A stretch of DNA of 55,991 nucleotides from Trueperaceae bacterium (GTDB lineage Bacteria; Deinococcota; Deinococci; Deinococcales; Trueperaceae). This document shows, one piece after another, positions 9,322 through 55,991 of the stretch. Within the stretch, counting starts at the first letter, position 1; each line of letters opens with the position of its first letter. Both the position numbers and the translations under genes were made by a program. The notes under the pieces were generated by a model, which made no database searches, was not told the DNA's origin, and saw only the letters and a program-made list of their open reading frames with translations. Where the stretch lies: NCBI GenBank assembly GCA_011389865.1, contig JAABTL010000017.1, forward strand, positions 1 through 55,991, given 5' to 3'.

Positions 9322-9384
9322 ATCGCGCCTGCGGCGCGATTCCAAGCAGTTCCACGGGCTGCTGCAAGCAGCCCATGGAACTGC
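9320..9384 (+). repeat. Twin-hairpin element A at the end of the HAMP-protein gene
   Basis: Hairpin 1 is 9320-9342: arms GAATCGCGC / GCGCGATTC with a 5-nt loop, and the TGA stop (9319-9321) overlaps its first bases. A CAA spacer follows. Hairpin 2 is 9346-9384: 17-bp arms beginning GCAGTTCCA and ending TGGAACTGC, with one C/A mismatch and a TGCAA loop; CGTG follows. There is no T-tract, so a classical intrinsic terminator is not shown. Same architecture as the copies at 9466, 28113, 37478, 37575 and 53377. Confidence 0.8.
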
Positions 9385-9465: not shown

Positions 9466-9528
9466 GCAGTTCTGCGGGCTGCTGCAGGCAGCCCGCAGAA
9501 CTGCTTGGAGCCGAGGCTTCGCCTCGGC

Positions 9529-9530
<2 letters not shown>
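9466..9530 (-). repeat. Twin-hairpin element B at the end of glyA
   Basis: Mirror image of element A, read on the minus strand. Hairpin 1 (9508-9530) has 10-bp arms GAGCCGAGGC / GCCTCGGCTC and includes two bases of the glyA stop codon. A CAA spacer follows. Hairpin 2 (9466-9504) has 17-bp perfect arms starting GCAGTTCTGCGGGCTGC. Elements A and B face each other between convergent genes and share the GGGCTGC inner stem, so one may derive from the other. Role as bidirectional terminator, RNA-stability element or repetitive DNA is undetermined. Confidence 0.8.
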
Positions 9531-10788
<1,258 letters not shown>

Positions 10789-28112: not shown

Positions 28113-28188
28113 GCGCCTGCGGGCGCATGCAGAGGCATGCGCCCGCAGGCGCCGAGCAGTTCGAGCGTGCGCTGCACGCTCGAACTGC
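28113..28188 (+). repeat. Twin-hairpin element E in the divergent alaX/folE spacer
   Basis: Hairpin 1 (28113-28152) has 18-bp perfect arms, GCGCCTGCGGGCGCATGC and its complement, with an AGAG loop. After CGA comes hairpin 2 (28156-28188), with 15-bp perfect arms starting GCAGTTCGAGCGTGC and ending GAACTGC and a GCT loop. A further partial copy of the right arm (GCACGCTCGAAC) follows at 28193-28204. This is the only member not at a stop codon; it begins 20 bp upstream of the alaX -10 box. Confidence 0.8.
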
Positions 28189-35049: not shown

Positions 35050-36789
<1,740 letters not shown>

Positions 36790-36799
36790 GGCGGGGGCC

Positions 36800-37498
36800 A
36801 TGCAGATCAACGTCAAGATCAAGCGCTACAACCCGGAGGCCGACGCGCGACCCTACTGGGCCGAGTACAAGCTCGAGGCGCGCGGCTCCGACCGCGTGCT
36901 CGACGTCATCAACCACCTGAAGTGGGAGGTGGACGGCACGCTGGCCTTCCGCCGCTCGTGCGCCCACGGCATCTGCGGCTCCGACGCGATGCTGATCAAC
37001 GGCGTCAATCGCCTCGCCTGCAAGGTGTTGGTCAAGGACCTCGGCGAGCGCATCACGATCGAGCCCATCCGCGGGCTGCCGGTCCTCAAGGACCTGATCG
37101 TCGACATGGAGCCGTTCTTCGACTCCTACAAGGCGGTGCTGCCGTTCTTCATCAACGACGATCCGCCACCCCCCGGCGAGCGCTACCAGAGCGCCGAGGA
37201 CCGGGCGGTCTTCGACGAGACCACCAAGTGCATCCTGTGCGCCGCCTGCACCACCAGCTGCCCGGTCTTCTGGACCAACGGCCGCTACCTGGGGCCGGCC
37301 GCCATCGTCAACGCCCACCGCTTCATCTTCGACTCGCGCGACCAGGGCGCCGCCGAGCGCCTCGGGGTGCTCAACCAGGCCAACGGCCTGTGGCGCTGCC
37401 GCACCGCCTACAACTGCACCGAGGCGTGCCCGCGCGACATCCCCATCACGCGGGCGATCGAGGAAGTCAAGCGTGCGCTTCTTTGGCGAGGGGCATAG
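36800..37498 (+). CDS. sdhB: Succinate dehydrogenase iron-sulfur subunit
   Basis: A 232-aa electron-transfer subunit. The [2Fe-2S] site is SCAHGICGSDAM...LAC, with Asp in place of one Cys as in several bacterial SdhB. The [4Fe-4S] and [3Fe-4S] sites are CILCAACTTSCPVFW and CRTAYNCTEACPRDIPITRAI. The last four residues (WRGA) and the TAG stop are encoded by the left arm and loop of a 14-bp hairpin, the first part of repeat element C. The native C-terminus may therefore have been altered when the element arrived. Confidence 0.96.
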   Translation: MQINVKIKRYNPEADARPYWAEYKLEARGSDRVLDVINHLKWEVDGTLAFRRSCAHGICGSDAMLINGVNRLACKVLVKDLGERITIEPIRGLPVLKDLIVDMEPFFDSYKAVLPFFINDDPPPPGERYQSAEDRAVFDETTKCILCAACTTSCPVFWTNGRYLGPAAIVNAHRFIFDSRDQGAAERLGVLNQANGLWRCRTAYNCTEACPRDIPITRAIEEVKRALLWRGA

Positions 37499-37557
37499 CT
37501 CCTCGCCAAAGAAGGGCCAAGCAGTCTTGGGGGCCGCAATGCGGCCCCCAAGACTGC
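37478..37557 (+). repeat. Twin-hairpin element C overlapping the sdhB stop codon
   Basis: Hairpin 1 (37478-37514) has 14-bp perfect arms CTTCTTTGGCGAGG / CCTCGCCAAAGAAG; the sdhB TAG lies in its loop. A GGCCAA spacer follows. Hairpin 2 (37521-37557) has 17-bp perfect arms, GCAGTCTTGGGGGCCGC and its complement, with an AAT loop. CGTG follows. Confidence 0.85.
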
Positions 37558-37574
37558 CGTGCGCCGGTCCCAGC

Positions 37575-37645
37575 GCGAGGCGCTTGAGCGCCTCGCCACA
37601 GAAGCGCCAAGCAGTTCGGGGGCCGTTCGTTGGCCCCCGAACTGC
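37575..37645 (+). repeat. Twin-hairpin element D, tandem relative of element C
   Basis: Hairpin 1 (37575-37596) has 9-bp arms GCGAGGCGC / GCGCCTCGC with a TTGA loop. The following CACAGAAGCGCCAA matches the right flank of element C (CCAAAGAAGGGCCAA) with few changes. Hairpin 2 (37611-37645) has 14-bp perfect arms, GCAGTTCGGGGGCC and its complement, with a 7-nt loop, followed by CGTG. Same orientation as C. Confidence 0.8.
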
Positions 37646-37696
37646 CGTGTGAAGAGCCTTGGCAGCGGAACGTGAACCGGCGTCGTCGTGTGGGTC

Positions 37697-38119
37697 TCAG
37701 GCGAGTCGCCGATGCGCGGCGAGCAGCGTGCGGTGGAGGTCGCGCAAGTCGTCGAGACGGTTCTGCAGCACGTCGTAGACGATCGTGAGGTCCACCTCCA
37801 AGTAGTCGTGGACCAAGACGTCGCGGAAGCCGATGATCCGACGCCAGGTGCGCGCTTGGGCCTCGCTCAGATGCCCGGCCTCCAGGAGACGCGCCGGCAC
37901 GTCGCCGTAGCTGGCGACCGGTCCGACCCGAGCCCGCGCCACGACGTGGGCGCCGAGGTCGTCGAGGACCTCCACGGCGAGTTGGAGGAAGCGCTCGCTG
38001 CTGCCGTACTTCTCCGGGTCGCCATGGAAGCGCGCCCACGGGGTCTCGGCCAGGCGTTCGAGGATGCCGAGGATCTCTTCGAAGCGTCGTGTCCTGCGCT
38101 CGAAGACGTCATCGCTCAT
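37697..38119 (-). CDS. hepT: HepT-like ribonuclease toxin (DUF86)
   Basis: A 140-aa all-helical HEPN-family toxin. The catalytic RxxxxHxY motif is present as RDVLVHDY (about 98-105), preceded by FRDV-type helices typical of HepT. HepT cleaves RNA and is neutralised by MntA, which AMPylates the Tyr of this motif. ATG 38119 overlaps the mntA stop by 11 bp, the usual antitoxin-first order. Its 3' side faces repeat elements C and D. Confidence 0.9.
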   Translation of the reverse strand: MSDDVFERRTRRFEEILGILERLAETPWARFHGDPEKYGSSERFLQLAVEVLDDLGAHVVARARVGPVASYGDVPARLLEAGHLSEAQARTWRRIIGFRDVLVHDYLEVDLTIVYDVLQNRLDDLRDLHRTLLAAHRRLA

Positions 38120-38513
38120 CGCGTTCGAGCCCTTCGTAGTAGGCCTCGCGCACGAGTCGCCGAAGACGCGCGGTGTCGTCGTACCGCCTCAGCGCCTGCG
38201 CGAACGCCTCGTGAGGGTCGTAGTCGGCGGCGGCGTACACCAGGCGGTTCGGTCCGATCGCCTCGAAGCGCAGGACCGGGTCGTCGCGATCGAGGACCAC
38301 GAGGTCGACGCTCTCGAAGCCAGCGTCGACCAGGTCTGCCAGGAGGTCGAGCTTGCGGGCGCGCGCGCCGGGCACGGCTGGGTCGAGCGCCAGGTCCAGG
38401 TCGCTTCGGGCAGACGCCGTCCCTCTGGCGTGGGAGCCGAACAGCCACACCCCGGCCACCTCCGGGTAGCGGCCGAAGATCGTGCGCAAGGTGGCCAGGT
38501 CGGCGTCGTCCAT
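38109..38513 (-). CDS. mntA: MntA-like minimal nucleotidyltransferase antitoxin
   Basis: A 134-aa MNT-fold protein with the GS-x10-DxD signature GSHARGTASARSDLDLALD (about 26-44) and a third acidic residue in ESVDLVVLDRDD. MntA antitoxins transfer AMP from ATP to the HepT Tyr. The active-site residues are intact, so the pair looks functional. ATG 38513 lies 6 nt after TATACT, a leaderless promoter for the operon. Confidence 0.9.
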   Translation of the reverse strand: MDDADLATLRTIFGRYPEVAGVWLFGSHARGTASARSDLDLALDPAVPGARARKLDLLADLVDAGFESVDLVVLDRDDPVLRFEAIGPNRLVYAAADYDPHEAFAQALRRYDDTARLRRLVREAYYEGLERDER

Positions 38514-38519
38514 GGGGCG

Positions 38520-38525
38520 AGTATA
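38520..38525 (-). promoter_or_regulatory. Leaderless-type -10 box of mntA-hepT (TATACT)
   Basis: TATACT on the minus strand, then CGCCCC (6 nt) and ATG 38513. Confidence 0.7.
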
Positions 38526-38605
38526 GGGGAGGGGTCCGCCGCCTCGCGCACGGGATCGGGAAGCGAGCCGCCGCGCTGCCCCGACCTCAGCGTGCGCCCC
38601 AGCGG

Positions 38606-39253
38606 TCACCGCGGGGCGAACACCCCGGTCGTCAGCCCGTACGCGAAGGCGTCCTCGTCCTCGCCGACGTAGACGTTGACGGTGCGCTCGAAGCTGGGGT
38701 TCATGGTGTCGCCGATCACGCCCGCGACCTCGCTGCGGTCGCCGGCGGGGTCGTCGAGCGTGACGAGCACCTCGGCGCCGCAGCCGTACTCGGCGAGCAG
38801 GTCGCGCGAGACGGCGACGTGGACCCACGCCTCCAGCACGACGCCGCAGGCGCCGGGGCCGCCGGTGACGTAGCTGAAGCCGATGCGCTCCAGCGCGACG
38901 CTGCCCTCGGGCACCACGCGCGGCTCGGGTGCGGGCGCCTCGTCGCCGGGAGCGTCCGCTTCCCCGCCCCCGGGCGATGCCTCCCCGTCGGGAGCCGGCG
39001 GCACCGCGGCGACGTCCGGCTCGCCGGGTTCGCCCTGCGACCCGGCCGGGTCGACGGGCGTGACTCGTGGTCCGGCCGGGTCGACGGGCGTGACCTGCGA
39101 CCCGCTGGGCGCGGGGGGCGCCGGTGATACGGCGGACGGCGTCGGGGCGTCGGTGCGGGGGCTGGAACCCAGGTTGAACAGGGTCCACATGATGCCGCCG
39201 GCGACCGCCACGAGGCCCACGATGAGGGCGACATCGAGGAGGCGGCTTCGCAT
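38606..39253 (-). CDS. Membrane-anchored hypothetical protein with Pro-rich linker
   Basis: A 215-aa protein of no family I can name. One N-terminal membrane segment (about 8-28, VALIVGLVAVAGGIMWTLFNLG) is followed by a Pro/Ala/Glu-rich linker (about 32-108) that contains two copies of VTPVDPAG. A C-terminal domain (about 110-215) has two Cys (GACGV and YGCGAEV) that could form a disulfide outside the cell. The ending NPSFERTVNVYVGEDEDAFAYGLTTGVFAP looks conserved rather than random. TAGGCT lies 7 nt before the ATG. It is divergent from the antiporter gene. Confidence 0.75.
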   Translation of the reverse strand: MRSRLLDVALIVGLVAVAGGIMWTLFNLGSSPRTDAPTPSAVSPAPPAPSGSQVTPVDPAGPRVTPVDPAGSQGEPGEPDVAAVPPAPDGEASPGGGEADAPGDEAPAPEPRVVPEGSVALERIGFSYVTGGPGACGVVLEAWVHVAVSRDLLAEYGCGAEVLVTLDDPAGDRSEVAGVIGDTMNPSFERTVNVYVGEDEDAFAYGLTTGVFAPR

Positions 39254-39260
39254 GGGGCCT

Positions 39261-39266
39261 AGCCTA
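39261..39266 (-). promoter_or_regulatory. Leaderless-type -10 box of the 215-aa protein gene (TAGGCT)
   Basis: TAGGCT on the minus strand, 7 nt before ATG 39253. Confidence 0.6.
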
Positions 39267-39318
39267 ACGCGGCAGGGTGTGAAGCGGATGGTCCGTGGGT
39301 GGCGGAGGCCGGCGGTGG

Positions 39319-39324
39319 TAGCCT
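39319..39324 (+). promoter_or_regulatory. Leaderless-type -10 box of the antiporter gene (TAGCCT)
   Basis: TAGCCT, then TGCGCG (6 nt) and GTG 39331. Confidence 0.6.
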
Positions 39325-39330
39325 TGCGCG

Positions 39331-40260
39331 GTGAACGTCGTCCTGGTCGTCGTCGGCTTGCTGGGCCTGTACCTGGGCGGCGAGCTCCTGGTGCGCAGCG
39401 CCTCGGCGCTGGCGCGGGCGCTCGGCATCGCGCCGATGGTGATCGGGTTGACCGTCGTGGCGTTCGGGACCTCGGCCCCGGAGCTGGCGGCGACGCTGGT
39501 CGCCGCCTTCCGCGGCGCGCCCGAGTTGGCCATCGCCAACGTCATCGGATCCAACGTCGCCAACATCGGGCTGATCCTCGGGCTGACCGCCCTGGCGTAC
39601 CCGTTGGCGACGAGCGCCTCGTTCCTGCGGCGCGAGGTGCCCTGGATGCTCGCGGCCACCGTCTTGGTCCTGCCGCTGCTGTTCGACGGGCGCCTGTTGC
39701 GGCTCGAGGGGCTGCTGCTGTGGCTCGCGCTCGCCGCCTTCCTCCTGGCGGCCTTCCGCACGGCCGGCGCACCCGACGTGCTGGTGGACGAAGCCGGCGG
39801 CGCGGCGACGCGGCGGCAGCCGTGGCGCGACGCCCTCGGCGTCGCGGTCGGTGTGGCGGTGCTGGCGTTCGGCGCCCATGCGCTGGTCACCGGCGCGACG
39901 GCCCTCGCGCTCATCTGGGGCGTGCCGGAGCGCGTGATCGGCTTGACGCTGGTGGCGCTCGGCACCAGCCTGCCGGAGCTCGCGAGCAGCCTCGTCGCGG
40001 CGCTGCGGCGCGAGACCGACATCATCCTCGGGAACGTGATCGGCTCGAACCTGTTCAACCTGCTGGCGGTGCTGGGCACGGCCGCGGTCGTTCACCCGAT
40101 CGAGGTGCCGGCGGTGGGCCTCAGGCTCGACCTGCTGATCATGCTGGGCTTCTCGCTCGCGGTGGTGCCGCTGATGCTGCTGGGCCGCAGGCTGGGTCGC
40201 CGCGACGGCGCCCTGCTGCTGGTCGCCTACCTCACCTACGTCGTGTGGCTGTACCTCTAG
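39331..40260 (+). CDS. Calcium/sodium antiporter (CaCA family, YrbG-like)
   Basis: A 309-aa exchanger with about ten membrane helices in two inverted halves. The paired alpha-repeats read GLTVVAFGTSAPELAATLV...ANVIGSNVANIGLILG and GLTLVALGTSLPELASSLV...GNVIGSNLFNLLAVLG, both with the ion-binding GTSxPE and GSN motifs. The family exchanges Ca2+ or K+ for Na+/H+ across the cytoplasmic membrane. GTG 39331 follows a leaderless box; the stop lies 15 bp from that of the convergent ridA. Confidence 0.95.
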   Translation: MNVVLVVVGLLGLYLGGELLVRSASALARALGIAPMVIGLTVVAFGTSAPELAATLVAAFRGAPELAIANVIGSNVANIGLILGLTALAYPLATSASFLRREVPWMLAATVLVLPLLFDGRLLRLEGLLLWLALAAFLLAAFRTAGAPDVLVDEAGGAATRRQPWRDALGVAVGVAVLAFGAHALVTGATALALIWGVPERVIGLTLVALGTSLPELASSLVAALRRETDIILGNVIGSNLFNLLAVLGTAAVVHPIEVPAVGLRLDLLIMLGFSLAVVPLMLLGRRLGRRDGALLLVAYLTYVVWLYL

Positions 40261-40275
40261 GCGCGCCCGCTCAGG

Positions 40276-40659
40276 TCAGGCGCTCGGCACCCAGGCGACG
40301 CACTCCACCTCGACGCGCGCGTCCTTCGGCAGGCGTGCCACCTCGACGGTGCTGCGCGCCGGCGCGCCCTCCCCGAAGTAGCGCCCGTACACCTCGTTGA
40401 ACGCCGCGAAGTCGTTCATGTCGGCGAGGAAGCAGGTGCACTTGACGGCGTGGCCGAAGGTGGTGCCGGCCGCGGCGAGCACGGCCTGCAGGTTCTCCAT
40501 CACCTGCTCGGCCTGCACGGCGATGTCGCCCTCGACCATGCTGCCGTCGGGGCGCATCGGCAGGGTGCCGGAGGTGAACACCAGGTCGCCGACGCGGACG
40601 GCTTGGCTGTAGGGGCCGATGGCTGCGGGGGCGCGGTCGGTCTGGACGGGGCGTAGCAT
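40276..40659 (-). CDS. ridA: RidA-family enamine/imine deaminase
   Basis: A 127-aa RidA/YjgF protein hydrolysing reactive 2-aminoacrylate and related enamines. Motifs are AIGPYSQAVRVGDLVFTSGTLPM, QAEQVMENLQAVLAAAGTTF, KCTCFLADMNDFAAFNEVYGRYF and PARSTVEVARLPKDARVEVECVAW, which includes the carboxylate-binding Arg. Length is canonical. ATG 40659 is 5 nt after TAGGCT. Confidence 0.95.
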   Translation of the reverse strand: MLRPVQTDRAPAAIGPYSQAVRVGDLVFTSGTLPMRPDGSMVEGDIAVQAEQVMENLQAVLAAAGTTFGHAVKCTCFLADMNDFAAFNEVYGRYFGEGAPARSTVEVARLPKDARVEVECVAWVPSA

Positions 40660-40664
40660 GCCCT

Positions 40665-40670
40665 AGCCTA
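40665..40670 (-). promoter_or_regulatory. Leaderless-type -10 box of ridA (TAGGCT)
   Basis: TAGGCT on the minus strand, then AGGGC (5 nt) and ATG 40659. Confidence 0.6.
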
Positions 40671-40721
40671 AGCCCATCCGGCGGGGGACGGGTCACTTCC
40701 GGGCGTCGTCTGGCGGCCGCG

Positions 40722-41867
40722 TCAGCCCCGCCACAGCGAGAACACGATGAAGAGCAGCAGCAGGTACACCGAGCCGACGATCCACCCGCGGTACGGGTAC
40801 CAGGGCTGGCGCCGCAGGAGCCGCAGGGGCGACCGCAGCGGGAACGTGTCCTCGACCTCGCGGATGCCCGACATCGTGTCGCCGACCTCGACCGAGGTCG
40901 GCCCGGCGCTCGCCGGCGGCAGCTCGTAGCGCTTGGGCCGCTGGGCGACCGCGGCGACTTCCACCACGACGGCGGTGACGTTGTCCGGGCTGCCGCGGTC
41001 GTTCGACTCGGCGATCAGCGCGTCCGCGGCCTCCTGCGGCGCGTGGTCGGTCAGGATCTGCGCGATCAGCCCCTCGGAGACCATCGCCGAGACGCCGTCG
41101 GAACACAGCAGGAAGCGGTCGCCGGCGCGGACGTCGACGCTGCCGAGATCGAGGCGGAAGCTGGGGCCGGCGCCGAGGGCGTTGGTGATGACGTTGCGCC
41201 AGCGATGCCGGCGCGCCTCCTCCGTCGACAGCAGTCCCTGACGCACCCGGTCAGCCACCCAAGAGTGGTCCTGGGTCAGCTGGACGAGCTCGCCGTCGCG
41301 CAGCCGGTAGGCGCGCGAGTCGCCCACGTGGCCGATGAGGCCGACCTGGTCGTCGATCAGCAGGGCGGTCAGGGTGGTGCCCATGCCCTGGTGTTCGGGG
41401 CGCTCGCTCGCCAGCGCGTAGACCTCCAGGTTGGCCGCCTGCGCGGCGCGCGCGAGCGCGGCCGGCGGGTGGGCGCGGAGCGACCGCAGCGTCGCGAGGA
41501 ACGTGTCGAGCGCCTGCTGGCTGGCCACCTCGCCGGTCTGGTGCCCGCCCATGCCGTCGGCGACGACCGCCAGGTAGCCCTTGTGCCCGACCTGCCCGGC
41601 CCAGTGGGCGTCCTGGTTGACGACCCGGACGCGGCCCGCGTCGCTGGCCGCGGCGGCGGCCACGCGCGTCGCGGCCTCGGCGGGCGTCGCCGTGGCGGCC
41701 GCCGAGCCGGGGCCCACCCCCGCGGCGCCCACGTCCTCGGCGGCGGCCACGTCCTCGGCGGCGGCCGCCGCCGAGGACGACCCGTTCGCGCCGGCCACAC
41801 GGCCGCCCGTCACCACGCCCGCTTCGGGCGGCGACGGTGCGCCATCGCGATCGGGGGCCCATGCCAT
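40722..41867 (-). CDS. PP2C-type Ser/Thr protein phosphatase with C-terminal membrane anchor
   Basis: A 381-aa Stp/PrpC-like phosphatase. Residues 1-65 are low complexity (AAAAAEDVAAAEDV-type repeats). The PP2C domain spans about 68-310: RVVNQDAHW, VVADGMGGHQTGE, GMGTTLTALLI, IGHVGDSRAYRL, LLCSDGVSAMV and SPDNVTAVVVEV supply the metal-binding Asp residues. A single membrane segment (GSVYLLLLFIVFSLW) lies at the extreme C-terminus, so the enzyme faces the cytoplasm from a tail anchor. The partner kinase is not in the window. TATGCT lies 7 nt before ATG 41867. Confidence 0.93.
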   Translation of the reverse strand: MAWAPDRDGAPSPPEAGVVTGGRVAGANGSSSAAAAAEDVAAAEDVGAAGVGPGSAAATATPAEAATRVAAAAASDAGRVRVVNQDAHWAGQVGHKGYLAVVADGMGGHQTGEVASQQALDTFLATLRSLRAHPPAALARAAQAANLEVYALASERPEHQGMGTTLTALLIDDQVGLIGHVGDSRAYRLRDGELVQLTQDHSWVADRVRQGLLSTEEARRHRWRNVITNALGAGPSFRLDLGSVDVRAGDRFLLCSDGVSAMVSEGLIAQILTDHAPQEAADALIAESNDRGSPDNVTAVVVEVAAVAQRPKRYELPPASAGPTSVEVGDTMSGIREVEDTFPLRSPLRLLRRQPWYPYRGWIVGSVYLLLLFIVFSLWRG

Positions 41868-41874
41868 GCCCGTC

Positions 41875-41880
41875 AGCATA
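41875..41880 (-). promoter_or_regulatory. Leaderless-type -10 box of the PP2C gene (TATGCT)
   Basis: TATGCT on the minus strand, 7 nt before ATG 41867. Confidence 0.6.
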
Positions 41881-41943
41881 GGATCCGCCGCCGGCGACGC
41901 GAGCGTAATCGCTCGCATGCGCGGCGGTCCGCGGGGGCCGTGC

Positions 41944-41949
41944 TAGGCT
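41944..41949 (+). promoter_or_regulatory. Leaderless-type -10 box of gatA (TAGGCT)
   Basis: TAGGCT, 7 nt before ATG 41957. Confidence 0.6.
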
Positions 41950-41956
41950 CCGCCGC

Positions 41957-43369
41957 ATGACGAGCGCCCGCGAGACCGCCGCCGCCGTACGGTCGCGGCG
42001 GGTGACGGCGGTCGAGGTCGCCGAGACGGCGTTGGCCGCGGCCGCCAGCTCGACCTCCAACGCGTTCGTCACGCTCGCCGAGGCGCGCGCGCTGGCTCGC
42101 GCCGCGGCCGTGGACGCGGCGATCACCGCCGGCCGCGATCCCGGCCCGCTCGCCGGGGTTCCCGTCGCCGTCAAGGACAACATCTGCACCGCGGGCGTGG
42201 CCACGACGGCCGGCAGCGCCGTGCTGCGCGGCTTCGTCCCGCCGTACGACGCGACCGTGGTCGCGCGCCTTGAGGCCGCCGGCGCGCTGGTGATCGGCAA
42301 GACGAACCTCGACGAGTTCGCGATGGGCAGCTCCAGCGAGACGTCGGTCTTCGGTCCCGTGCGCCATCCGGCCGACCCCGGTCGCGTCGCCGGCGGCTCG
42401 TCCGGTGGCTCCGCCGTGGCGGTGGCCGAGGGCGTGGTGCCGCTCGCGCTGGGGACCGACACCGGCGGTTCGGTGCGGCAGCCGGCCGCGTTCTGCGGCG
42501 TCTTCGGGATCAAGCCCACCTACGGCCGCCTGTCGCGGTACGGCGTGATCGCTTACGCCAGCTCGCTCGACCAGGTGGGGGTGTTCTCCCGCGACGCGGA
42601 CGACGCGGCGGTGGCGCTCTCCGCGATGGCCGGGCGCGACCCGGCCGACGCGACGACCGCCGCGCGCGCCGCCGACGAGCTCGGACCCGTGCCCGTCGAC
42701 CTGCGTGGCCTGCGCGTCGGGCGCATCGCCGACCTCTGGCAGGGCGTGAGCGACGGCGTCCGTGCCGCGCTCGACGGCGTCGCCGCGCGCTTCGTCGAGT
42801 CGGGGGCCACGGTGGTCGACGTCGAGCTGCCGCTGGTGGAGGCGGCCGTGAGCAGCTACTACCTGATCGCCATGGCGGAGGCCAGCAGCAACCTCGCGCG
42901 CTACGACGGCACCCTCTACGGGCTGCGGCTCGGCGAGGCGCGCGACGGCCACGAGGCGGTCGCCCGCGCCACCCGGGCGGCCGGTCTGGGCCGCGAGGTG
43001 CAGCGGCGCGTGCTGATGGGCTCGTTCGCGCTGTCGGCGGGTTACGCCGACGCCTACGCCGAGCGGGCCGCGCGCGTGCGGCGGCGCATCGCCGACGCGC
43101 TGCAGGACGCGCTCGCCGGCGTCGACGTGCTGCTCGCGCCGACCGCGCCGACGGTCGCCTGGCGGCAGGGCGAGCGGCTCGACGACCCGCTGGCGATGTA
43201 CGTGGCGGACGTCACCACCTGCCTCGCCAACCTGTCGGGCATGCCGGCGCTCAGCCTGCCGGCCGGCGCCGCGGAGGACGGCCTGCCCGCGGGGGCGCAG
43301 CTGATCGGGCCGGCGTGGTCCGAGGCGCGCCTGTTGGGGTGGGCGCGGGCGGTGACGGCGAAGGCGTAG
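41957..43369 (+). CDS. gatA: Asp/Glu-tRNA amidotransferase subunit A (glutaminase)
   Basis: A 470-aa amidase-signature protein releasing ammonia from glutamine for tRNA-bound Asp/Glu. The catalytic triad is Lys73 ([10 protein letters not shown]), Ser148 ([15 protein letters not shown]) and Ser172 ([16 protein letters not shown]). [23 protein letters not shown] and the C-terminal [16 protein letters not shown] are typical of GatA rather than other amidases. Stands alone behind a leaderless promoter; gatB is 16 kb to the left. Confidence 0.96.
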
Positions 43370-43685
43370 CCGGGCGTGGCGGCCGGGCGTAGCCGCGCCG
43401 CCGCGTGAGCTCGGACCCCGCGTGCGCGCGGACGCCGGCCCGGGTCGTAGGGGGGCCGGCAGCGAATCCGCGACGGCCGACGTTCATCCCGCGCAGCGGC
43501 CCGTGTGCTATCCTCCCAAGGCTCGACCCTGGAGACGTGTCGCACGCCGATGCGGTTCCGTGGGCGGCGACCCCCGATCACCCCCGGCGCGCGAACCCCG
43601 GCGCCGTGGTTGCCGTTGCATGCGGCGGTCCGTTCGCGTCCGAGGTGCCGGGCGCAGCGAACCGAGCGGAAGGAGAACGAACGCC
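43370..43685 (+). other. Spacer between gatA and rpmH: promoter and leader only
   Basis: No gene is supported here. TATCCT at 43509-43514 is the likely rpmH promoter, giving a leader of about 165 nt ending in AAGGAGAACG before the ATG. No dnaA gene, DnaA-box cluster or AT-rich stretch is seen, although rpmH often neighbours oriC. The rnpA frame (ATG at 43550, GTG at 43505) is open through the leader. Confidence 0.6.
43509..43514 (+). promoter_or_regulatory. Probable -10 box of the rpmH-rnpA-yidD-yidC-jag operon (TATCCT)
   Basis: GCTATCCTCCC, 171 nt upstream of rpmH. It is the only TAnnnT box with a usable position before this operon. Confidence 0.5.
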
Positions 43686-43829
43686 ATGAAGCGGACTTAC
43701 CAGCCCAACCGGCGCAAGCGCGCCAAGACCCACGGCTTCCGTGCGCGCATGAAGACGGCCGCCGGCCGCAACGTCATCAAGCGCCGTCGCGCCAAGGGCC
43801 GTCACAGCCTGTCCGTATCGGACCGCTGA
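43686..43829 (+). CDS. rpmH: 50S ribosomal protein L34
   Basis: A 47-aa basic protein with the invariant start [22 protein letters not shown] and [34 protein letters not shown] precedes the ATG. First gene of the operon encoding ribosome, RNase P and membrane-insertion factors. Its TGA stop overlaps a CTG (CTGA) that is a candidate rnpA start. Confidence 0.98.
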
Positions 43830-44317
43830 AGCCAGCGCCGGTCGTTCGCTCCCTGAAGGGCGACCGCGCGTTCCAGCGACTCCGGAAGGGACGCCCCGGT
43901 GGATCGAAGCACCTCAGCCTGCGATTGCGCCCCGCCCGTCACGGTGACGTGCGGGTGGCGTTCGTCGTGAGCCGCAAGGTGGGCAAGGCCGTGGTCCGCA
44001 ACCGCGTGCGCCGCCGCCTGCGCGAGTCGCTGCGCGCCATGCTCCGCGCGACGCCTGCGGCCGCCGGCACCGACGCGTCGGCGGGCGCGGACGCGCCGCG
44101 CGGCGTGGGCCCCGAGGGCCGCTGGCCGCCGTCGTTCGACGCGCTGGTCATCGTTCGGCCGTCCGCCGCCGAGGCGGACTACCGCGAACTCGGCGAGGCC
44201 CTGCGCCGTGCCCTCGACCAGGCGAGCGCGCCGGCGAGACCGCCGGGCCCGAAGTCGCCGGCGCCCAAGACGCCGCCTGCTCGAGCGGGCGCGCGCGGCT
44301 CGGCGAGGTCGGCGTGA
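43826..44317 (+). CDS. rnpA: Ribonuclease P protein component (start codon uncertain)
   Basis: Basic protein assisting RNase P RNA in tRNA 5' maturation. The core reads [46 protein letters not shown] (with the RNR motif) and [27 protein letters not shown]. Residues after about 130 form a Pro/Ala/Lys tail. No ATG, GTG or TTG exists in frame between the rpmH stop and the conserved core; the nearest are ATG 43550 and GTG 43505, upstream of rpmH. Either CTG 43826 (overlapping the rpmH stop as CTGA) is used, giving 163 aa, or rnpA is a 5'-extended gene with rpmH nested inside, as known in Thermus. The stop overlaps the yidD start. Confidence 0.88.
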
Positions 44318-44613
44318 GCCACGACGTCCGCCCCTCGTGGCCGCGGCGCGTCGTCACCGCGCCCATCGTGCTCTACCGGCGCTTCCTGTCGCCGCTCAAG
44401 CCCGCCCCCACCTGTCGCTTCCACCCGACCTGCAGCGCCTACGCGGTCGAGGCGGTGCACGTCCACGGCGTGTTCCGCGGCCTGGTGATGGCGACCTGGC
44501 GGCTGCTTCGCTGTCATCCGTTCCACCCCGGGGGGTTCGACCCGGTCCCCCCCGCGCGCACCGCCCCCCTCGTCGTCCCGGGCCGCCCCGGCCACGCAGC
44601 GGAGGAACCTTGA
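44314..44613 (+). CDS. yidD: Membrane protein insertion efficiency factor YidD
   Basis: A 99-aa protein with the family signature [33 protein letters not shown] and [17 protein letters not shown], holding the three conserved Cys. An N-terminal amphipathic helix binds the inner face of the membrane beside YidC. GTG 44314 overlaps the rnpA stop (GTGA) and its stop overlaps the yidC start (TTGA). Confidence 0.95.
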
Positions 44614-46163
44614 GCAGCACCGTCGCACCCCGTCTCCTCGTCGCCGTGCTCCTGCTCGCCCTCACCGGGCTGGCCGCGGCGCGCGACGCGTTCGGCACCT
44701 ACCCCTTCACGCCGGCGGAGTTCCGCGACGCGGAGCGGCTCACCACCGCGTGCGCCGTGCCGGGCGCGCCATCGTTCTGGTGCGACGAACTCGACCAAGT
44801 GCTGGTCAAGGTGCCCACCAAGGGCGTCGACCTCATGTTCTCCGAGGCTGGCGAGGTGGTGGCCGCGTTCGCGAAGATCCAGAAGGGCCAGTCGCTGTCG
44901 AGCTACCAGGTGGAGAACCGCGACAACCTCGTCCCGGCCGACGCGCCCATCCCGGGCGCCGCGCTGCTGCTCGACGGCGTGTACCACCCGCCGGTGGACC
45001 CCGAGGCGAGCTGGGTGGAGGTCGACGAGACCACGCTCCGCGGCAGCTTCGCCTACCAGGCGGGTGGCCTCGACGTCGCCGTCGAGGTCGAGGTCTCCAA
45101 CGTGGTGCAGACGCTGCACTACGAGGTGACGGTCAGCCTGCCGGCCGACGCGCCCGACGACCTGGAGCTGCCGTCGATGGTGCAGTTCGCGGTCGCCGGG
45201 GTGGGGCGCGCCGAGACGCCGGTCATCAAGATCGGCCAGAGCGACGCCTTCACGCTCAACCCGCTGTCGGTGCCGGTCGAGTCGCCGAGCTACGCCTCGC
45301 TGCAGACGAGCAACAACAACCGCGACAACGCGGTGATCCTCACCCCCGGCGAGGGCGTGACCGGACGCGGCGCGGGGGACCCGCTGCAGGCGATCTCCCT
45401 AGGCGGCCGCCGCCTGGCCATGCAGGCGCCCTTCGACGGCGGGGCGCGCCTGACCGTCGACGCGTATTTCGGCAAGAACGAGCTGGTGCGCTTCTACCAG
45501 GAGGGGTACGACGGCCTCCCCGGGCTGTTCAACCCCAACATCCTGGGCCGCATGTCGCTGTGGGTGCTGATCGCCCTCGAGTTCATCCACACCTACGTCA
45601 ACAACTGGGCGCTGTCGATCATCGTCCTGACGCTGCTGTTCCGCGCGCTGGTATGGCCGCTGATCACCACCCAGACCAAGTCGATGTTCGGCATGCAGGC
45701 GCTGCAGCCGGAGCTGCAGAAGCTGCAGAAGAAGTACAAGGACGACCGCGAGAAGCTGACGCAGGAGACGATGAAGCTCTACAAGGAGGCCGGCGTCAAC
45801 CCGGCGGGCGGCTGCCTGCCGATCCTCCTGCAGATGCCGCTGTTCATCATCCTGTGGCGCGTGTTCGTCAACTTCGAGTTCAACCAGGGCTTCCTGTGGA
45901 TCCCCGACCTGGGCCTGCCCGACCCGTGGTACATCCTGCCGGCGCTGTACGTGCTCGTCATGCTGGCGATGTCGTGGTTCTCCGCGCGCGGCAACCCCCA
46001 GATGCTGCGCCAGTCGATCCTGATCAACTTCGTCTTCGTGTTCATCATGGTCGGCTTCCCGGCCGGCGTGCTGCTGTACTTCGTGGTAAGCATGGGCGTG
46101 CAGGTATTCCAATACTGGTTGCTCAACCGGAACCGTCCGGCGCCAGCGACCGCGAAGGCGTGA
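44610..46163 (+). CDS. yidC: Membrane protein insertase YidC
   Basis: A 517-aa insertase. The N-terminal hydrophobic segment (about 4-22) is followed by a large periplasmic beta-rich domain (about 30-300). The conserved five-helix core holds [39 protein letters not shown], the cytoplasmic hairpin [29 protein letters not shown] and the final [25 protein letters not shown] periplasmic domain of this size resembles Gram-negative (diderm) YidC. TTG 44610 has GGAGG 5 nt upstream and overlaps the yidD stop. Confidence 0.96.
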
Positions 46164-46204
46164 GCGTGCCCGGGTGGCGCCGCCACGACGGGTGAGGAGC
46201 ATCC

Positions 46205-46957
46205 ATGGCCGAACGTGACCTCGACAGCTACCTCGAAGGCATCGGCATCGACATCGATGGCGAGCGGGACGCCCCGCGGTCCCTCGGCGAGGAGTCGTCG
46301 CCGAACGACGCGCCCGAGGACGCCGAGCGCGACGCCGAGGGCTTCGACCGGGACGACGGCGACGCGCCACCCAGCGACGACGAGGGCGACGAACTCGCGC
46401 CCGCCGACGACGACGGCTGGGGCCAGGACGACGACATCGACTTCGAGCGGGCGATGGCCGGCGTCGGTCTCGGCGGCGTCGTGCCCGACGATCTCGCGGC
46501 CGACCAGCGGGCGGAGACCTTCCTCGTCCAGCTGCTGCTGTACCTCGATCCCACCTACGCCGTCGACGTCACGATCGACCACGACGGCGCGGTCCACGCC
46601 GACGTGCACGGCGGCGACGCCGGTCGCCTGATCGGCAAGGGCGGGCGCACGCTGGCCGCGCTCGAGTTCCTGACGAACGCGGTGGTCAACAAGGTCGAGG
46701 GCGAGGCGCCCGTGCGGGTGAACGTCGACGTCGGCGGCTACAAGCGCCGGCGCGACGAGCGGCTGCGGGTCGTCGCGCAGCGCGCGGCCGCGCGCGTGCG
46801 CAAGTCGGGCATGCCGGTCGAGCTCGAGCCGATGAGCGCCGCCGAGCGGCGCGTGGTGCACATGGCGTTGGCCGACGACCCCGCCGTCGAGAGCGAGTCG
46901 TCCGGCGAGGGTCGTGACCGACGCGTGGTCGTCTACCCGGCCGGGGACGGCGCCTGA
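46205..46957 (+). CDS. jag: Jag/KhpB-type RNA-binding protein (KH plus R3H)
   Basis: A 250-aa protein. Residues 1-90 are strongly acidic low complexity in place of the usual Jag-N domain. A KH domain contains GRLIGKGGRTLAALEFLTNAVVNK (about 140-163), and an R3H domain has AERRVVHMALADDPAVESESSGEGRDRRVVVYP. KhpB proteins bind RNA and affect cell elongation and division. ATG 46205 has GAGGAG 6 nt upstream; it lies 41 nt after yidC, the standard neighbour. Confidence 0.93.
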   Translation: MAERDLDSYLEGIGIDIDGERDAPRSLGEESSPNDAPEDAERDAEGFDRDDGDAPPSDDEGDELAPADDDGWGQDDDIDFERAMAGVGLGGVVPDDLAADQRAETFLVQLLLYLDPTYAVDVTIDHDGAVHADVHGGDAGRLIGKGGRTLAALEFLTNAVVNKVEGEAPVRVNVDVGGYKRRRDERLRVVAQRAAARVRKSGMPVELEPMSAAERRVVHMALADDPAVESESSGEGRDRRVVVYPAGDGA

Positions 46958-46967
46958 CGTAGCCGCC

Positions 46968-47849
46968 ATGACCGACGAGGGGTCGGCGGCGCTCACGGCG
47001 AGGGACGTGGCGATGGCCGCGGCTCGGGTGCGCGCGCGCCTGACGGCGGCGGGCATCGAGTCGGCGGCCGCCGAGGCCGCCTGGCTGCTCGAGGCCGCGA
47101 CCGGGCTGACCCGCGCCGAGCAGGTGCTGGAGCGGGATCGACCGCTGGACGACGACGAACTGGCGCGGCTGGAGGCCTGGCTGCGGCGCCGCGAGGCGCG
47201 GGAGCCGCTGCAGCTGGTGCTGGGGACGGCGCCGTTCCACGGGTTGGAGCTGCAGGTGCGGCCCGGCGTCCTGGTGCCGCGGCCGGAGACCGAGTCGCTG
47301 GTGGAACGCGTGCTCGCCTCGCTGCGCTACGTGGCGGCGCCGCGCGTCCACGACGTGGGCACCGGCAGCGGGGCGATCGCCCTGGCGATCGCCGCGGCCC
47401 GGCCCGACGCGATCGTCAGCGCCAGCGACGTCGACGCCACGGCCGTGCTGGTGGCGCGCGCCAACGCCGCGGCGCTGGGCCTCCCGGTGACGGTGTGGCC
47501 GAGCGACCTGCTGGCGGCGCCCGAGGTCGCCGCGGCGGCCGCGGCGGCGCACGTCCTGGTGGCGAACCCGCCCTACCTCCCCGATGGGGATCGCGGGCGG
47601 TTGCCGCCCGAGGTGGCCTTCGATCCGCCCGAGGCGCTGTTCGCGGGCGAGGATGGCCTGGTCGTGGCCCGTGCCCTGGCGCGCCAGGCGGCGCCGCTGC
47701 TGCGTCCCGGCGGCATGCTGTGGCTCGAACTCGACCCGCGCAACGCCCAGGCGTTCGCGGACGAGCTCGCGGCCGCGGCGGTCTGGCGCGAGGCGCGCGT
47801 CGAGGCGGACCTCAACGGGCGTCGTCGCTTCGTGATGGCGCGCCGCTGA
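46968..47849 (+). CDS. prmC: Peptide chain release factor N5-glutamine methyltransferase
   Basis: A 293-aa SAM-dependent enzyme methylating the Gln of the GGQ motif in release factors. A five-helix N-terminal domain (about 1-90) is followed by VLVPRPETESLVE, the SAM loop VHDVGTGSGAIALAIA, and the catalytic NPPY in VLVANPPYLP. ATG 46968 follows the jag stop by 10 nt; an earlier in-frame ATG at 46914 would overlap jag. Its last 38 bp overlap the convergent lspA. Confidence 0.95.
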   Translation: MTDEGSAALTARDVAMAAARVRARLTAAGIESAAAEAAWLLEAATGLTRAEQVLERDRPLDDDELARLEAWLRRREAREPLQLVLGTAPFHGLELQVRPGVLVPRPETESLVERVLASLRYVAAPRVHDVGTGSGAIALAIAAARPDAIVSASDVDATAVLVARANAAALGLPVTVWPSDLLAAPEVAAAAAAAHVLVANPPYLPDGDRGRLPPEVAFDPPEALFAGEDGLVVARALARQAAPLLRPGGMLWLELDPRNAQAFADELAAAAVWREARVEADLNGRRRFVMARR

Positions 47850-48426
47850 CGGCGGCGGAACGCATCGGGCCGCCCGCGTCCGCGTCGGCGGCCGCCTCGG
47901 GCGTGGCGGCCTCGACCGGCTTCGCGTCGTGGTGGCCGCCGGGGGCGAACAGCGTCGAGAGCAGCAGCCAGGCGGCACCCAGCGAGATGCCGATGTCGGC
48001 GACGTTGAACACCGGGAAGTCGAACCAGCCCGCCTGCGCGTGGATGAAGTCGACGACGTAGTGCAGCCGCCAGCGGTCGATGCCGTTGCCGACGGCGCCG
48101 CCCATCACCGCGCCGAGGGCCAGCCGCGTGCCCCAGCCCAGCGCGTGGGCGCGGAACAGCCACACGGCCAGCGCGACCGCCACCACCAGCGACACGAGCC
48201 CCAGCAGCTGCACGCCGTCGATCGTGACGACGCCCAGGTCGAGCCCGAAGTCGCGCAGCAGGCCGAAGGCGGCCCCGCTGTTGCGGGTGTGGGTCAGGTG
48301 CAGGATGCCGCCCCACGAGCCGGCTCGCGTGCCGAGCGGCACCTCGGCCACGACCCAGGCCTTGCTGAGTTGGTCGAGGGCGATCACGGCGGCCGCGAGG
48401 GAGAAGGGGAGCCAGCGGAGGAGCAT
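47812..48426 (-). CDS. lspA: Lipoprotein signal peptidase (signal peptidase II)
   Basis: A 204-aa four-helix membrane aspartic protease removing signal peptides from prolipoproteins. Catalytic Asp residues are in GAVGNGIDR and FPVFNVADIGISLGA; the conserved TRNSGAAFG is also present. The C-terminal ~35 residues are a disordered Ala/Asp-rich tail overlapping prmC tail to tail by 38 bp. TAGACT lies 8 nt before ATG 48426. The repeat lipoprotein at 53761 would be a client. Confidence 0.95.
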   Translation of the reverse strand: MLLRWLPFSLAAAVIALDQLSKAWVVAEVPLGTRAGSWGGILHLTHTRNSGAAFGLLRDFGLDLGVVTIDGVQLLGLVSLVVAVALAVWLFRAHALGWGTRLALGAVMGGAVGNGIDRWRLHYVVDFIHAQAGWFDFPVFNVADIGISLGAAWLLLSTLFAPGGHHDAKPVEAATPEAAADADAGGPMRSAAVSGAPSRSDDAR

Positions 48427-48434
48427 CGCCCGCG

Positions 48435-48440
48435 AGTCTA
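48435..48440 (-). promoter_or_regulatory. Leaderless-type -10 box of lspA (TAGACT)
   Basis: TAGACT on the minus strand, 8 nt before ATG 48426. Confidence 0.6.
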
Positions 48441-48482
48441 TCCCGGGGTGCGCGCGGGACCGGAGGCCCCGGAGACCCGCGG

Positions 48483-48488
48483 TATGCT
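48483..48488 (+). promoter_or_regulatory. Probable -10 box of the glutamate dehydrogenase gene (TATGCT)
   Basis: TATGCT, 83 nt before ATG 48572. The leader contains a GC-rich hairpin around GGGGGAGCCCCC (48512-48523). Confidence 0.45.
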
Positions 48489-48571
48489 CGCGTGAAAGCC
48501 CCGCATGCTGTGGGGGAGCCCCCGGCGCCGCCCCACGGATGAGTTCGCATCAGGCGTACGAAGGGATGTCC

Positions 48572-51500
48572 ATGGCCGCTACGCTCCCCCAGGTCGAAGC
48601 CCGCATCCGTCGTCGCGAAGGGCACGAGGTCGCTCGCCTCGTGCCCTTCGCCGAGCAGCTGTTCCGCAAGGCCGACGAGAGCTTCCTCGAGGCCTTCGAC
48701 GCGGACACGCTGTTCGCGTTGGCCAAGGACAGCCTCGCGTTCTTCGACCGGGCCGGCAGGGACGGGGCACCGCAGACCGTCGAGGTGTTCAACCCCAGCT
48801 ACGCGGCCGAGGGGTGGGAGTCCCCGTACACCGTGCTGCGCCTGGCGATCGGCGACCGGCCCTTCATCGTCGATTCGCTGCGGGCCGAGCTGCGGCGGCA
48901 GGGCTTCACGGTCTACCACGTGCTCCACCCGACCTTCATGGTGCTGCGCGGGCCCGATGGCGCGATCGCCGAGATCTCGCCCAGGCGCGGCCCGGCGCCC
49001 GAGGAGGCCAGGAGCGAGGCCTTCGAGCTGTGGTTCATCGACCGCGAGGACGACGCGGAGCGCCGCGAGCGCCTGCGGCTGGCGGTCGAACGCGTGCTCG
49101 GCGACGTCATCCTCGCCACCGACGACTTCGGGGCGATGGTCGAGAAGACCCGCGAGGTCGCGGCCGGCCTGCGCGAGTTGCGCGAGCGCACCGCCAAGGG
49201 GCGCTTCCGCGACCGCGCCGAGGAGCTCGAGGAGTTCGCGGCGTTCCTCGAGTGGCTCGAGGACGGACACTTCATCTTCCTCGGCTACCGCAGCTACGAC
49301 CTGATCGACCTCGAGGGCGAGAGGGCGCTCGCGATCGATCCGGACTCCGGGCTCGGGCTCTTGCGCAAGGTCGAGCGCAGCAACTATCGGGAGCCCGTCC
49401 CGCTGTCGAAGATGTCCGACGAACTGCGCGACCGGGTGGTCGACGGCCGCACGCTCATCGTGACGAAGACCAACGCCGAGTCCACCGTGCGCCGCGCGGC
49501 GCGCATGGACTACATCGGCGTGAAGAAGCTGAGCGACACGTGGCAGGTGCTGGGCGAGCATCGCTTCCTCGGGCTCCTGAACACCAAGGCGTACACCGAG
49601 CCCGCCGAGCAGGTGCCGATCCTGCGCATGAAGCTGCGGCAGGTGCTCGAGATCGACGGCTCGCTGCCCGGTTCGCACGACTACAAGCAGATCACCGTCG
49701 TCTTCAACTCGCTGCCGCGCGTCGACCTCTTCTGGGCCGATGCCGCCGCCGTGCACCGCGAGGTGCGGGCGATCATGAGCCTCGAGCAGGAGCGCGGCGT
49801 GCGCCTCCTGGTGCGGCCCGATCCCCTCGGTCGCGGCCTCTCCGTCACCGTCCGGCTGCCGCGCGACCACTTCAACGCCGAGGTGCGGCAGCGCGTCCAG
49901 CAGCACCTCACGCGGGTGCTCGACGCGCGCCACGTCGACTACCAGCTGTCGCTCGGCGAGGACGAGGCGCAGGCGCGCCTGCACTTCTTCCTCACCACCG
50001 AACGGCGCTTCGGCGACGTCGACGTCAAGGGTCTCGAGCGCGACGTCGCCGAGATCACCCGCACCTGGGAGGACCACCTGCGTGCGCGCCTGGTGCAGGT
50101 CCACGGCGAACGCGAGGGCCGCCGCCTGGCCGAGCGCTACGGCGGCGCCTTCGGCGCCCGCTACCGGGCCGACACCAGCGCCGCCGGCGCGCTGCGCGAC
50201 ATCGAGCACCTGGAGGAACTCGAGGAGGGCGGGGTCAAGGTCGACGTGGTGCAGCCGCTCGACGACCCGCGCGGCGAGGAGATCAGCCACGTCCGCGTCT
50301 ACCACCACGGCGAGGGCATGGTGCTCTCGGACGCGCTGCCGATCCTCGAGGACCTCGGCTTCCGGGTGCTGGAGCAGCTCTCGTACCGCGTCCGGGACCG
50401 GGGCCGGCAGCTCGCCATCGACGTCTTCAAGGTGCAGGACCAGCAGGGCACGCCGGTCGACGTCCGCGCGAACGGGCCGCGGCTGATCGAGGCCGCCGAG
50501 GCCATCCTGCGCCGCGAGGCGGAGCACGACAAGCTCGACCGGCTGGTGCTGTACGGCGGCCTCCGCGTGCGCGAGGTCGCGCTGCTGCGGGCGCTGCAGA
50601 TGTACTACGTGCAGCTCAACGCGGTCACCAGCCGCCGCTTCGTCAACGACACGCTGATCGCCTACCCGCAGGTCGCCCGCGCGATCATCGCGCTGTTCGC
50701 CGCCCGCTTCGACCCCGAGCTCGCCGACGACCGCGCCGAGGCCGAGGAGGCCGCCTTCGAGGCCTTCATCGACCTGCTCGCCGGCGTCGCCAGCCTGCCC
50801 GAGGACCAGGTGCTGCGCGGCCTGGCCGACCTCGTGCGCGCGATGGTGCGCTGCGACTACTACCTCGGGAACCCCGCGATCGCCTTCAAGATCGAGTCCG
50901 CCAAGGTCGCCCACATGCCCGCGCCGCGCCCGATGTTCGAGATCGGCGTCTCCTCGCCGCGGATGGAGGGCGTGCACCTACGCGGCGGCAAGGTCGCACG
51001 CGGCGGCATCCGCTGGTCCGACCGGCCCGACGACTTCCGCACCGAGGTCCTCGGACTGATGAAGACGCAGATGACCAAGAACGTCGTCATCGTGCCGGTC
51101 GGCAGCAAGGGCGGCTTCGTCGTCAAGCGCGCGCCGACCGACCGCGAGGACCTGCGCGCCTTCGTCGAGGCGCAGTACCGCGTCTACGTGCGCGCGCTGT
51201 TGGGGCTGACCGACAACTTGGTGGGCGGCGAGGTCGTGCACCCGGCCGGCCTGGTCATCCACGACGGCCCCGATCCCTACCTGGTGGTCGCCGCCGACAA
51301 GGGCACCGCCACCTTCTCCGACACCGCCAACGCGGTCGCCGCCGAGATGGGCTTCTGGCTCGGCGACGCCTTCGCCTCGGGCGGGTCGGTCGGCTACGAC
51401 CACAAGAAGGAGGGCATCACCGCCCGCGGCACCTGGGCCGCCGTCACCCGCCACTTCCGCGACCTCGGCCTCGATCCCATGCACGACACCTTCACCGCCG

Positions 51501-53380: not shown

Positions 53381-53443
53381 TTCGTCGGCGAAGCCGACGA
53401 ATCAACCTGGCAGTTTCGAGCGGCGATCGCCGCTCGAAACTGC
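53377..53443 (+). repeat. Twin-hairpin element F overlapping the glutamate dehydrogenase stop codon
   Basis: Hairpin 1 (53377-53405) has 13-bp perfect arms TTGATTCGTCGGC / GCCGACGAATCAA with a GAA loop; the TGA stop (53378-53380) is in the left arm. A CCTG spacer follows. Hairpin 2 (53410-53443) is a 34-nt perfect palindrome with no loop, each half starting GCAGTTTCGAGCGGCGA. It is followed by ACG. Confidence 0.85.
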
Positions 53444-53760
53444 ACGCGTTGAAGCATCGGTAGGACGGTTCAACATGGCGGTTCGGCGCGGCGACGGTCG
53501 CGCCGAGCTCGCCAAGCGGTCGCCGCGGCGGCCCCAGACATGCCAGCCGCAGGGCCACGTGCCCGAGCAGCCGGCAGGCCTGAACGGCCGGGGGGTCTCC
53601 GGCGCCGCCGGGTGTTCACGGGCGTTTCACGCCTCGTTCGCTATCGTTGGTTGACGGGACGTGGACCTCGCTGATCCGGGCGTGTGCACGCGGCCGAGGT
53701 ATCGGGTTTCGGTGGTGCCATGCCTCGGCGAGCGCCGGCGTCGCGCGTAGGAGGCGTGTG
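53444..53760 (+). other. Spacer before the repeat lipoprotein gene
   Basis: No gene seen. TATCGT at 53642-53647 is a possible -10 box about 113 nt before the ATG, and TAGGAGG at 53747-53753 is the ribosome site. The rest is GC-rich sequence without repeats of the GCAGT family. Confidence 0.6.
53642..53647 (+). promoter_or_regulatory. Possible -10 box of the repeat lipoprotein gene (TATCGT)
   Basis: TATCGT, the same hexamer as upstream of the EF-G-like gene and folE, with a leader of about 107 nt. Confidence 0.35.
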
Positions 53761-55554: not shown

Positions 55555-55705
55555 CCGCAGGCGGCCGGCCCTCGCGGGCCGGGCGGTCGTAGGCCGCGGG
55601 GTCGCGCCCTCCCGGGGTGCGCCCCGCGCCACGCGCGGCCCCGCGCCACGCGCGGCCCCGCGCCACATCGGCACCGGCGCGCCTGGTTCGCGGCCCAACG
55701 CGTCG

Positions 55706-55991
55706 TCAGCCTTCCTCGGCGAAGAACCCCCGCAACACCGCGTTCAGCACACGAATCCCGGCCCGCGTCGCGCTCAGGCGCGGGCCGTCCAGGACCAGCA
55801 GCCCATGCCGCAGCGCGGTCGCCAGCGCGTCGGGGAAGGCCGCCTCGACGTCGATGCCGGTGGTCGCGCGAAGCTCGCGGAGGTCGACGCCCTCGACCGT
55901 CCGCAGGCCGGTCATGAGCTTCTCCAGCGCGAAGTCGCGGCCGCCCAGGGACGTGCGCTCGGGCGGCTCGCCACGCAGCCAGGCCTTGATC
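55706..55991 (-). CDS. hemW: HemW-like radical SAM protein, C-terminal 94 residues
   Basis: Only the C-terminal domain is in the window; the radical SAM part lies beyond the right edge. The segment GEPPERTSLGGRDFALEKLMTGLRTVEGVDLREL, followed by the winged helix ending LLVLDGPRLSATRAGIRVLNAVLRGFF, is the HemN/HemW C-terminal domain. HemW is a haem chaperone; coproporphyrinogen oxidase HemN is less likely given the short ending. It is unrelated in position to the degenerate hemC homologue. Confidence 0.82.
   Translation of the reverse strand, partial: IKAWLRGEPPERTSLGGRDFALEKLMTGLRTVEGVDLRELRATTGIDVEAAFPDALATALRHGLLVLDGPRLSATRAGIRVLNAVLRGFFAEEG

Follow-up and report, generated by a model that had tools for sequence, protein, structure and literature searches.

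A constant foot combined with a variable stem body occurs in integron attC sites, palindromes with constant ends that lie at gene 3′ ends, and in the Neisseria dRS3 repeats. REP elements are short dispersed palindromes that for the most part lie immediately after genes; some provide a stop codon or reside inside ORFs (PMC3733652). The CGTC-tagged repeats, which include Rickettsia RPE-4/RPE-6 as well as Neisseria dRS3, have short unpaired end tags and in-frame intragenic copies, and no dedicated transposase is known for them (PMC3733652). Hairpins can also be made and maintained by template switching, of which loop inversion is a footprint (Monttinen and Loytynoja 2022, PMC8794818).

We analysed a window of 55,991 nucleotides, one contig (C8) of a 3.05-Mb Trueperaceae (Deinococcota) MAG (here G000), and found in it a repeat family that seems to represent a new type of palindromic repeat in bacteria. 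Direct reading and a perfect-stem scan placed six copies where the original prediction had put them (Table 1). The unit consists of hairpin 1, a linker of about 3 nt (CAA or TTG), hairpin 2 with a conserved foot of 5 bp (GCAGT/ACTGC) and then, usually, CGT. No Rfam family matched the window at its gathering score, the only matches being chance ones far below gathering scores. The original prediction had stated that no described family combines a constant stem base with a variable body, which is too strong in view of attC and dRS3.

The family was compared with each of these systems. Like REP elements, it comprises short multi-copy palindromes located mainly at gene ends, with some copies inside ORFs; unlike them, it has a fixed twin architecture, and its stem bodies vary between copies, contrary to what one known REP family with conserved stems would display. 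Membership in the REP/RAYT group was rejected because no GTAG tag was present at the hairpin ends of the tabulated copies (linkers are CAA/TTG, tails mostly CGT/ACG) and a Y1 (RAYT) transposase (PF01797) was detected in none of five genomes of the genus, with positive controls. In-frame ORF copies and short unpaired end tags are common to the family and the CGTC-tagged repeats, and neither has a known dedicated transposase. However, CGTC-tagged/RPE stems are 8–9 bp long and begin with AT, whereas the family stems span 9–20 bp and begin with GCAG or G; the tail is mostly CGTG-like (among 22 tabulated copies, it starts with CGT in seven and with ACG in five, and is CGTC in one), and the foot is GCAGT. 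Unlike attC sites, the family has GCAGT/ACTGC ends without RYYYAAC/GTTRRRY boxes and core genes as hosts; with these core boxes absent and no integron integrase IntI (TIGR02249) over the cut-off in five genomes, an integron origin was rejected as well. The multi-base compensatory changes and loop inversions described below resemble those of template-switch-maintained RNA hairpins (PMC8794818), although the latter belong to rRNA and other RNA genes, whereas here they affect dispersed repeats with a coding arm at several loci.

Table 1 Twin-palindrome copies and host genes in the window.
Feature	Position	Strand	Remarks
Copy 1, hairpin 1	9320–9342	+	10 bp; starts in TGA of gene 7939–9321
Copy 1, linker CAA	9343–9345	+	3 nt
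Copy 1, hairpin 2	9346–9384	+	GCAGT foot; 17/18 pairs, one mismatch
Copy 2, hairpin 1	9508–9530	-	starts in TGA of glyA
Copy 2, linker CAA	9505–9507	-	3 nt
Copy 2, hairpin 2	9466–9504	-	17 perfect pairs
Copy 3, hairpin 1	28113–28152	+	18 perfect pairs; between divergent alaX-like gene and folE
Copy 3, linker CGA	28153–28155	+	3 nt
Copy 3, hairpin 2	28156–28188	+	15 perfect pairs
Copy 4, hairpin 1	37475–37517	+	5′ arm and loop formed by the sdhB end, final codons plus stop (TAG 37496–37498)
Copy 4, linker CAA	37518–37520	+	3 nt
Copy 4, hairpin 2	37521–37557	+	18 bp, perfect; body wholly unlike G001/G002 orthologues
Tandem second unit at sdhB, hairpin 1	37575–37596	+	9-bp stem
Tandem second unit at sdhB, left-over sdhB-derived arm CACAGAAGCGC and linker CAA	37597–37610	+	
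Tandem second unit at sdhB, hairpin 2	37611–37645	+	14 perfect pairs
Copy 6, hairpin 1	53376–53406	+	overlaps TGA (53378–53380) of gene 48641–53380
Copy 6, linker CTG	53407–53409	+	3 nt
Copy 6, hairpin 2	53410–53443	+	17 perfect pairs
Copy 6, tail ACGCGTTGA	53444–53452	+	repeats hairpin 1 start and flank (GCGTTGA)
Host gene sdhB	36716–37498	+	start uncertain, 36716 or 36800
Host gene glyA	9529–10788	-	presumably, from its sequence, serine hydroxymethyltransferase

Five of the six second stems in the window are perfectly paired over 14–18 bp by the perfect-stem scan (14–17 bp in the original prediction), and on RNA folding the six copies gave z values of -5.8 to -10.5, no dinucleotide shuffle being equally stable. 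Other details of the first description had to be adjusted. For the first sdhB copy, the hairpin 1 start moves from 37478 to 37475; of the reported spacer range of 3–14 nt, the lower value applies to five of the six copies and 14 nt only to 37597–37610, where a left-over arm of the sdhB-derived hairpin 1 precedes CAA. The GCAGT...ACTGC foot, described as always present, holds for the window copies, but decayed or variant feet (GCGGT, GCACT, GCAGA, GTGGT) also occur, and its invariance in our model alignment arises partly by construction, since the copies were first found by that pattern. The usual position of hairpin 1 over a stop codon, often with a coding arm, the near-constant 3-nt linker, the tandem arrays and the in-frame copies had been missed.

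The twin architecture was also recovered independently of the foot. A structure-only scan for two close hairpins in 430 kb of the genome, several stretches of which were picked around GCAGT hits, yielded 14 twins versus none in a triplet shuffle. The linker was 3 nt in 12 of these 14, and 1–2 nt in a few sister-species copies. A motif-independent scan of 900 kb yielded six twins, three of them outside coding sequence, and two of these three (C29, L244) are, by inspection, family members with decayed feet. Given that almost no other close twin hairpins appeared in the latter scan, a general double terminator of this genome was rejected. At the end of nusG (L142:906-972, G000 C58) stands a twin hairpin whose linker is 3 nt long but which has no GCAGT foot; it may represent a diverged form or a founder of the family. 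Single copies have a tail that matches the beginning of their own hairpin 1 better than the beginnings in other copies (p about 0.0005 against shuffled pairings). A following unit that had been truncated would leave such a tail, and the copy 6 tail is accordingly read as the remnant of a following tandem unit. Because the repeat after hairpin 2 copies the hairpin 1 start, a tandem remnant fits better than a target-site duplication.

The pattern extends across the genome and its relatives, contrary to the genome-wide absence that the original prediction had named as its refutation. The genome has about 20 copies; of its 3.05 Mb, about 1.3 Mb was read base by base and the remainder searched by pattern and model. 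Further contigs with GCAGT...ACTGC palindromes are C14, C21, C44, C45, C63, C66 and C67. The close relatives, identified through SdhB, are Trueperaceae MAGs. At E up to 0.01, a covariance model built from 19 copies matched four species of the genus 19, 16, 11 and 7 times, respectively, and a fifth not at all. Widening the search to the bacterial family (39 genomes) and the phylum (111 genomes) added copies only as singles in two genomes of one sister genus (G041 and G043, one detected copy each), at the 3′ end of fumC (L297) and, by alignment to pstB orthologues, at the 3′ end of pstB (L298); the family was not found elsewhere among the 111 Deinococcota genomes. Restriction to one genus was rejected in view of these single copies. 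An assembly artefact is unlikely because separate assemblies of different isolates contain the same hairpin 1 and flanks.

We consider it rather probable that this is a REP/RPE-like family that evolves through tandem duplication, template switching and selection and has a probable RNA role at 3′ ends. It is a lineage-specific set of dispersed palindromes, two joined by about 3 nt and the second with a conserved 5-bp foot. Core genes carry most copies, at their 3′ ends, with hairpin 1 often built from the host's last codons and stop; copies would expand and contract as tandem units of hairpin 1, CAA, hairpin 2 and CGT. Replication template switching, copying one arm onto the other, would be the chief cause of the perfect arms, sometimes flipping the loop and sometimes overwriting several pairs at once, and selection for a strong hairpin would help to keep the arms perfect. 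At gene ends, the RNA pair would probably form a 3′-end structure affecting stability, termination, or ribosome or polymerase spacing. Anatomy, placement, arrays and in-frame copies are observed directly, as are the both-side changes, the block replacement and the loop inversions; that template switching is responsible, that the RNA has a role, and how copies reach new loci are inferences.

Perfect stems with changing sequence are usually read as proof of selection on RNA. The orthologous copies, at 1–15% third-position divergence, provide many natural before-and-after pairs, including a near-identical gene with a replaced stem, so that template switching and selection can be separated. We compared hairpins from four species, mostly entered by hand after having been found as hairpins. 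Among 67 stem pairs that changed between orthologues, in pairwise and therefore non-independent counts from MAG assemblies without phylogenetic correction, 51 were altered on both sides with pairing kept, 4 changed through G.U and 12 were broken, which bears out the compensated divergence proposed originally. Adjacent pairs change in runs, as in pairs 8–11 of the rpsB-leader hairpin 1. Of 38 loop comparisons, 4 show an inversion, at two loci (glyA and the rpsB leader), and 21 are neither identical nor inverted. In a small sample of stem mismatches on the gene-sense strand, A.C outnumbers G.U by 10 to 5, so the wobble tolerance expected under RNA selection alone is not visible. The two possibilities raised at the outset, selection on structure or a copying process that regenerates palindromes, were well chosen, and the multi-base changes on both sides, the inverted loops and the lack of a G.U excess over A.C favour copying or a mixture of the two.

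At pstB, the 5′ arm of hairpin 1 encodes the conserved C-terminal GRFG* end, the 3′ arm follows its synonymous changes, and 98.9% of cells pair; in this widespread gene, arms in the 3′ UTR thus keep step with silent substitutions around the stop codon. At glyA, the unit is absent in the fifth species of the genus.

The sdhB locus captures a replacement of the stem. The gene is 99.2% identical in DNA between G000 and G001 (98.5% at third positions), yet 22 nt beyond its stop codon the two have hairpin 2 bodies with nothing in common, still perfectly paired. For the new 12-nt body, a search of 1.3 Mb of the genome revealed no donor site with 0 mismatches and one unrelated site with 1 mismatch. 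Template switching alone does not account for the origin of this body, and arm copying does not explain the constant foot and linker. A bolder possibility, which we entertain tentatively, is that the stem body is exchanged or regenerated whole behind the fixed foot by dedicated or hyperactive fold-back copying, which would also turn the coding ends of host genes into inverted 3′ UTR arms, palindromy rather than sequence being inherited. The last sdhB codons (37475–37498; CTT CTT TGG CGA GGG) seem atypical of a genome with 74% GC, and in comparison with relatives the residues RE change to RA, giving the impression that the other arm has overwritten the coding arm itself. Adjoining the sdhB element, within 37697–38513 on the minus strand, is a gene for a HepT-family RNase toxin (NCBIfam NF047751) with a neighbouring ORF, 38109–38513, as its possible partner.

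With respect to host genes, hairpin 1 starts 0–24 nt before the stop codon in 20 of the 33 listed twins, at about 13 loci, and one arm is therefore often host coding sequence, as in sdhB, fumC, pntB and pstB. NCBIfam-named hosts with a copy at the 3′ end include fumC, icd, a pntB-like gene and nusG; rpsB and folE have a copy upstream, and pstB and hemW are also among the named genes with copies. In three loci of the same genome (L162, L143, L133), genes without hairpin 2 have a single strong stop-spanning hairpin, which points to a wider habit of this genome.

Strong hairpins directly at stop codons, copies between convergent genes, and the further T-tract-less single hairpins that this genome has shortly after stop codons would all suit terminators, possibly bidirectional, that dispense with a U-tract. 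In that case, the foot would be recognised by a protein or the polymerase, and the stems would covary by ordinary selection on RNA structure. We regard this as unlikely. As originally noted, the hairpins are not textbook terminators: no U-tract follows them by sequence reading, and a sense-strand scan of 36000–55991 found none downstream. Copies also lie upstream of rpsB and of folE and the alaX-like gene, G.U mismatches are not in excess over A.C, and ordinary selection does not easily explain the replacement of a whole stem within 1–2% divergence at sdhB. Furthermore, three genes have in-frame copies, either internally or at their start; such copies are hard to reconcile with termination, and they argue against palindromes as such being obligatory terminators. 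One array (C5) lies in-frame inside a 769-aa oxidoreductase, another (C2) in-frame inside a CoA-transferase, and the N-terminal codons of iolE are formed by a family copy in two species.

The CoA-transferase insertion, comprising roughly 45 residues that are absent from orthologues of other genera, is also what a REP/MITE-like miniature element would leave if a putative transposase mobilised hairpin 2 and the linkers and inserted them beside existing hairpins. The constancy of foot and linkers among dispersed copies confined to one lineage agrees with such an element, as does the block replacement at sdhB, which would then be substitution by another element, the variable bodies representing different subfamilies. 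Nevertheless, the five genomes of the genus lack a Y1 transposase, no clear target-site duplication is present, and most loci have no common body sequence, making this origin improbable too. Several loci are common to species of the genus, and two (fumC and pstB) to the genus and its sister genus, indicating that recent movement is rare.

In the tandem arrays of the family, a linker and tail code, CAA ... CGT, recurs, for example on C5 of this genome and on C123 of G002. Palindrome arrays are spliced in-frame into enzymes, of which we found no report for this phylum in the literature searched. Near codon 50 of a CoA-transferase homologue (L283; G004 C30), a different tandem array, made of GGAGCGCCGCTCC/CGAACTTCGG units, occupies the site where relatives carry the twin-palindrome array, which makes this loop an insertion hot spot.
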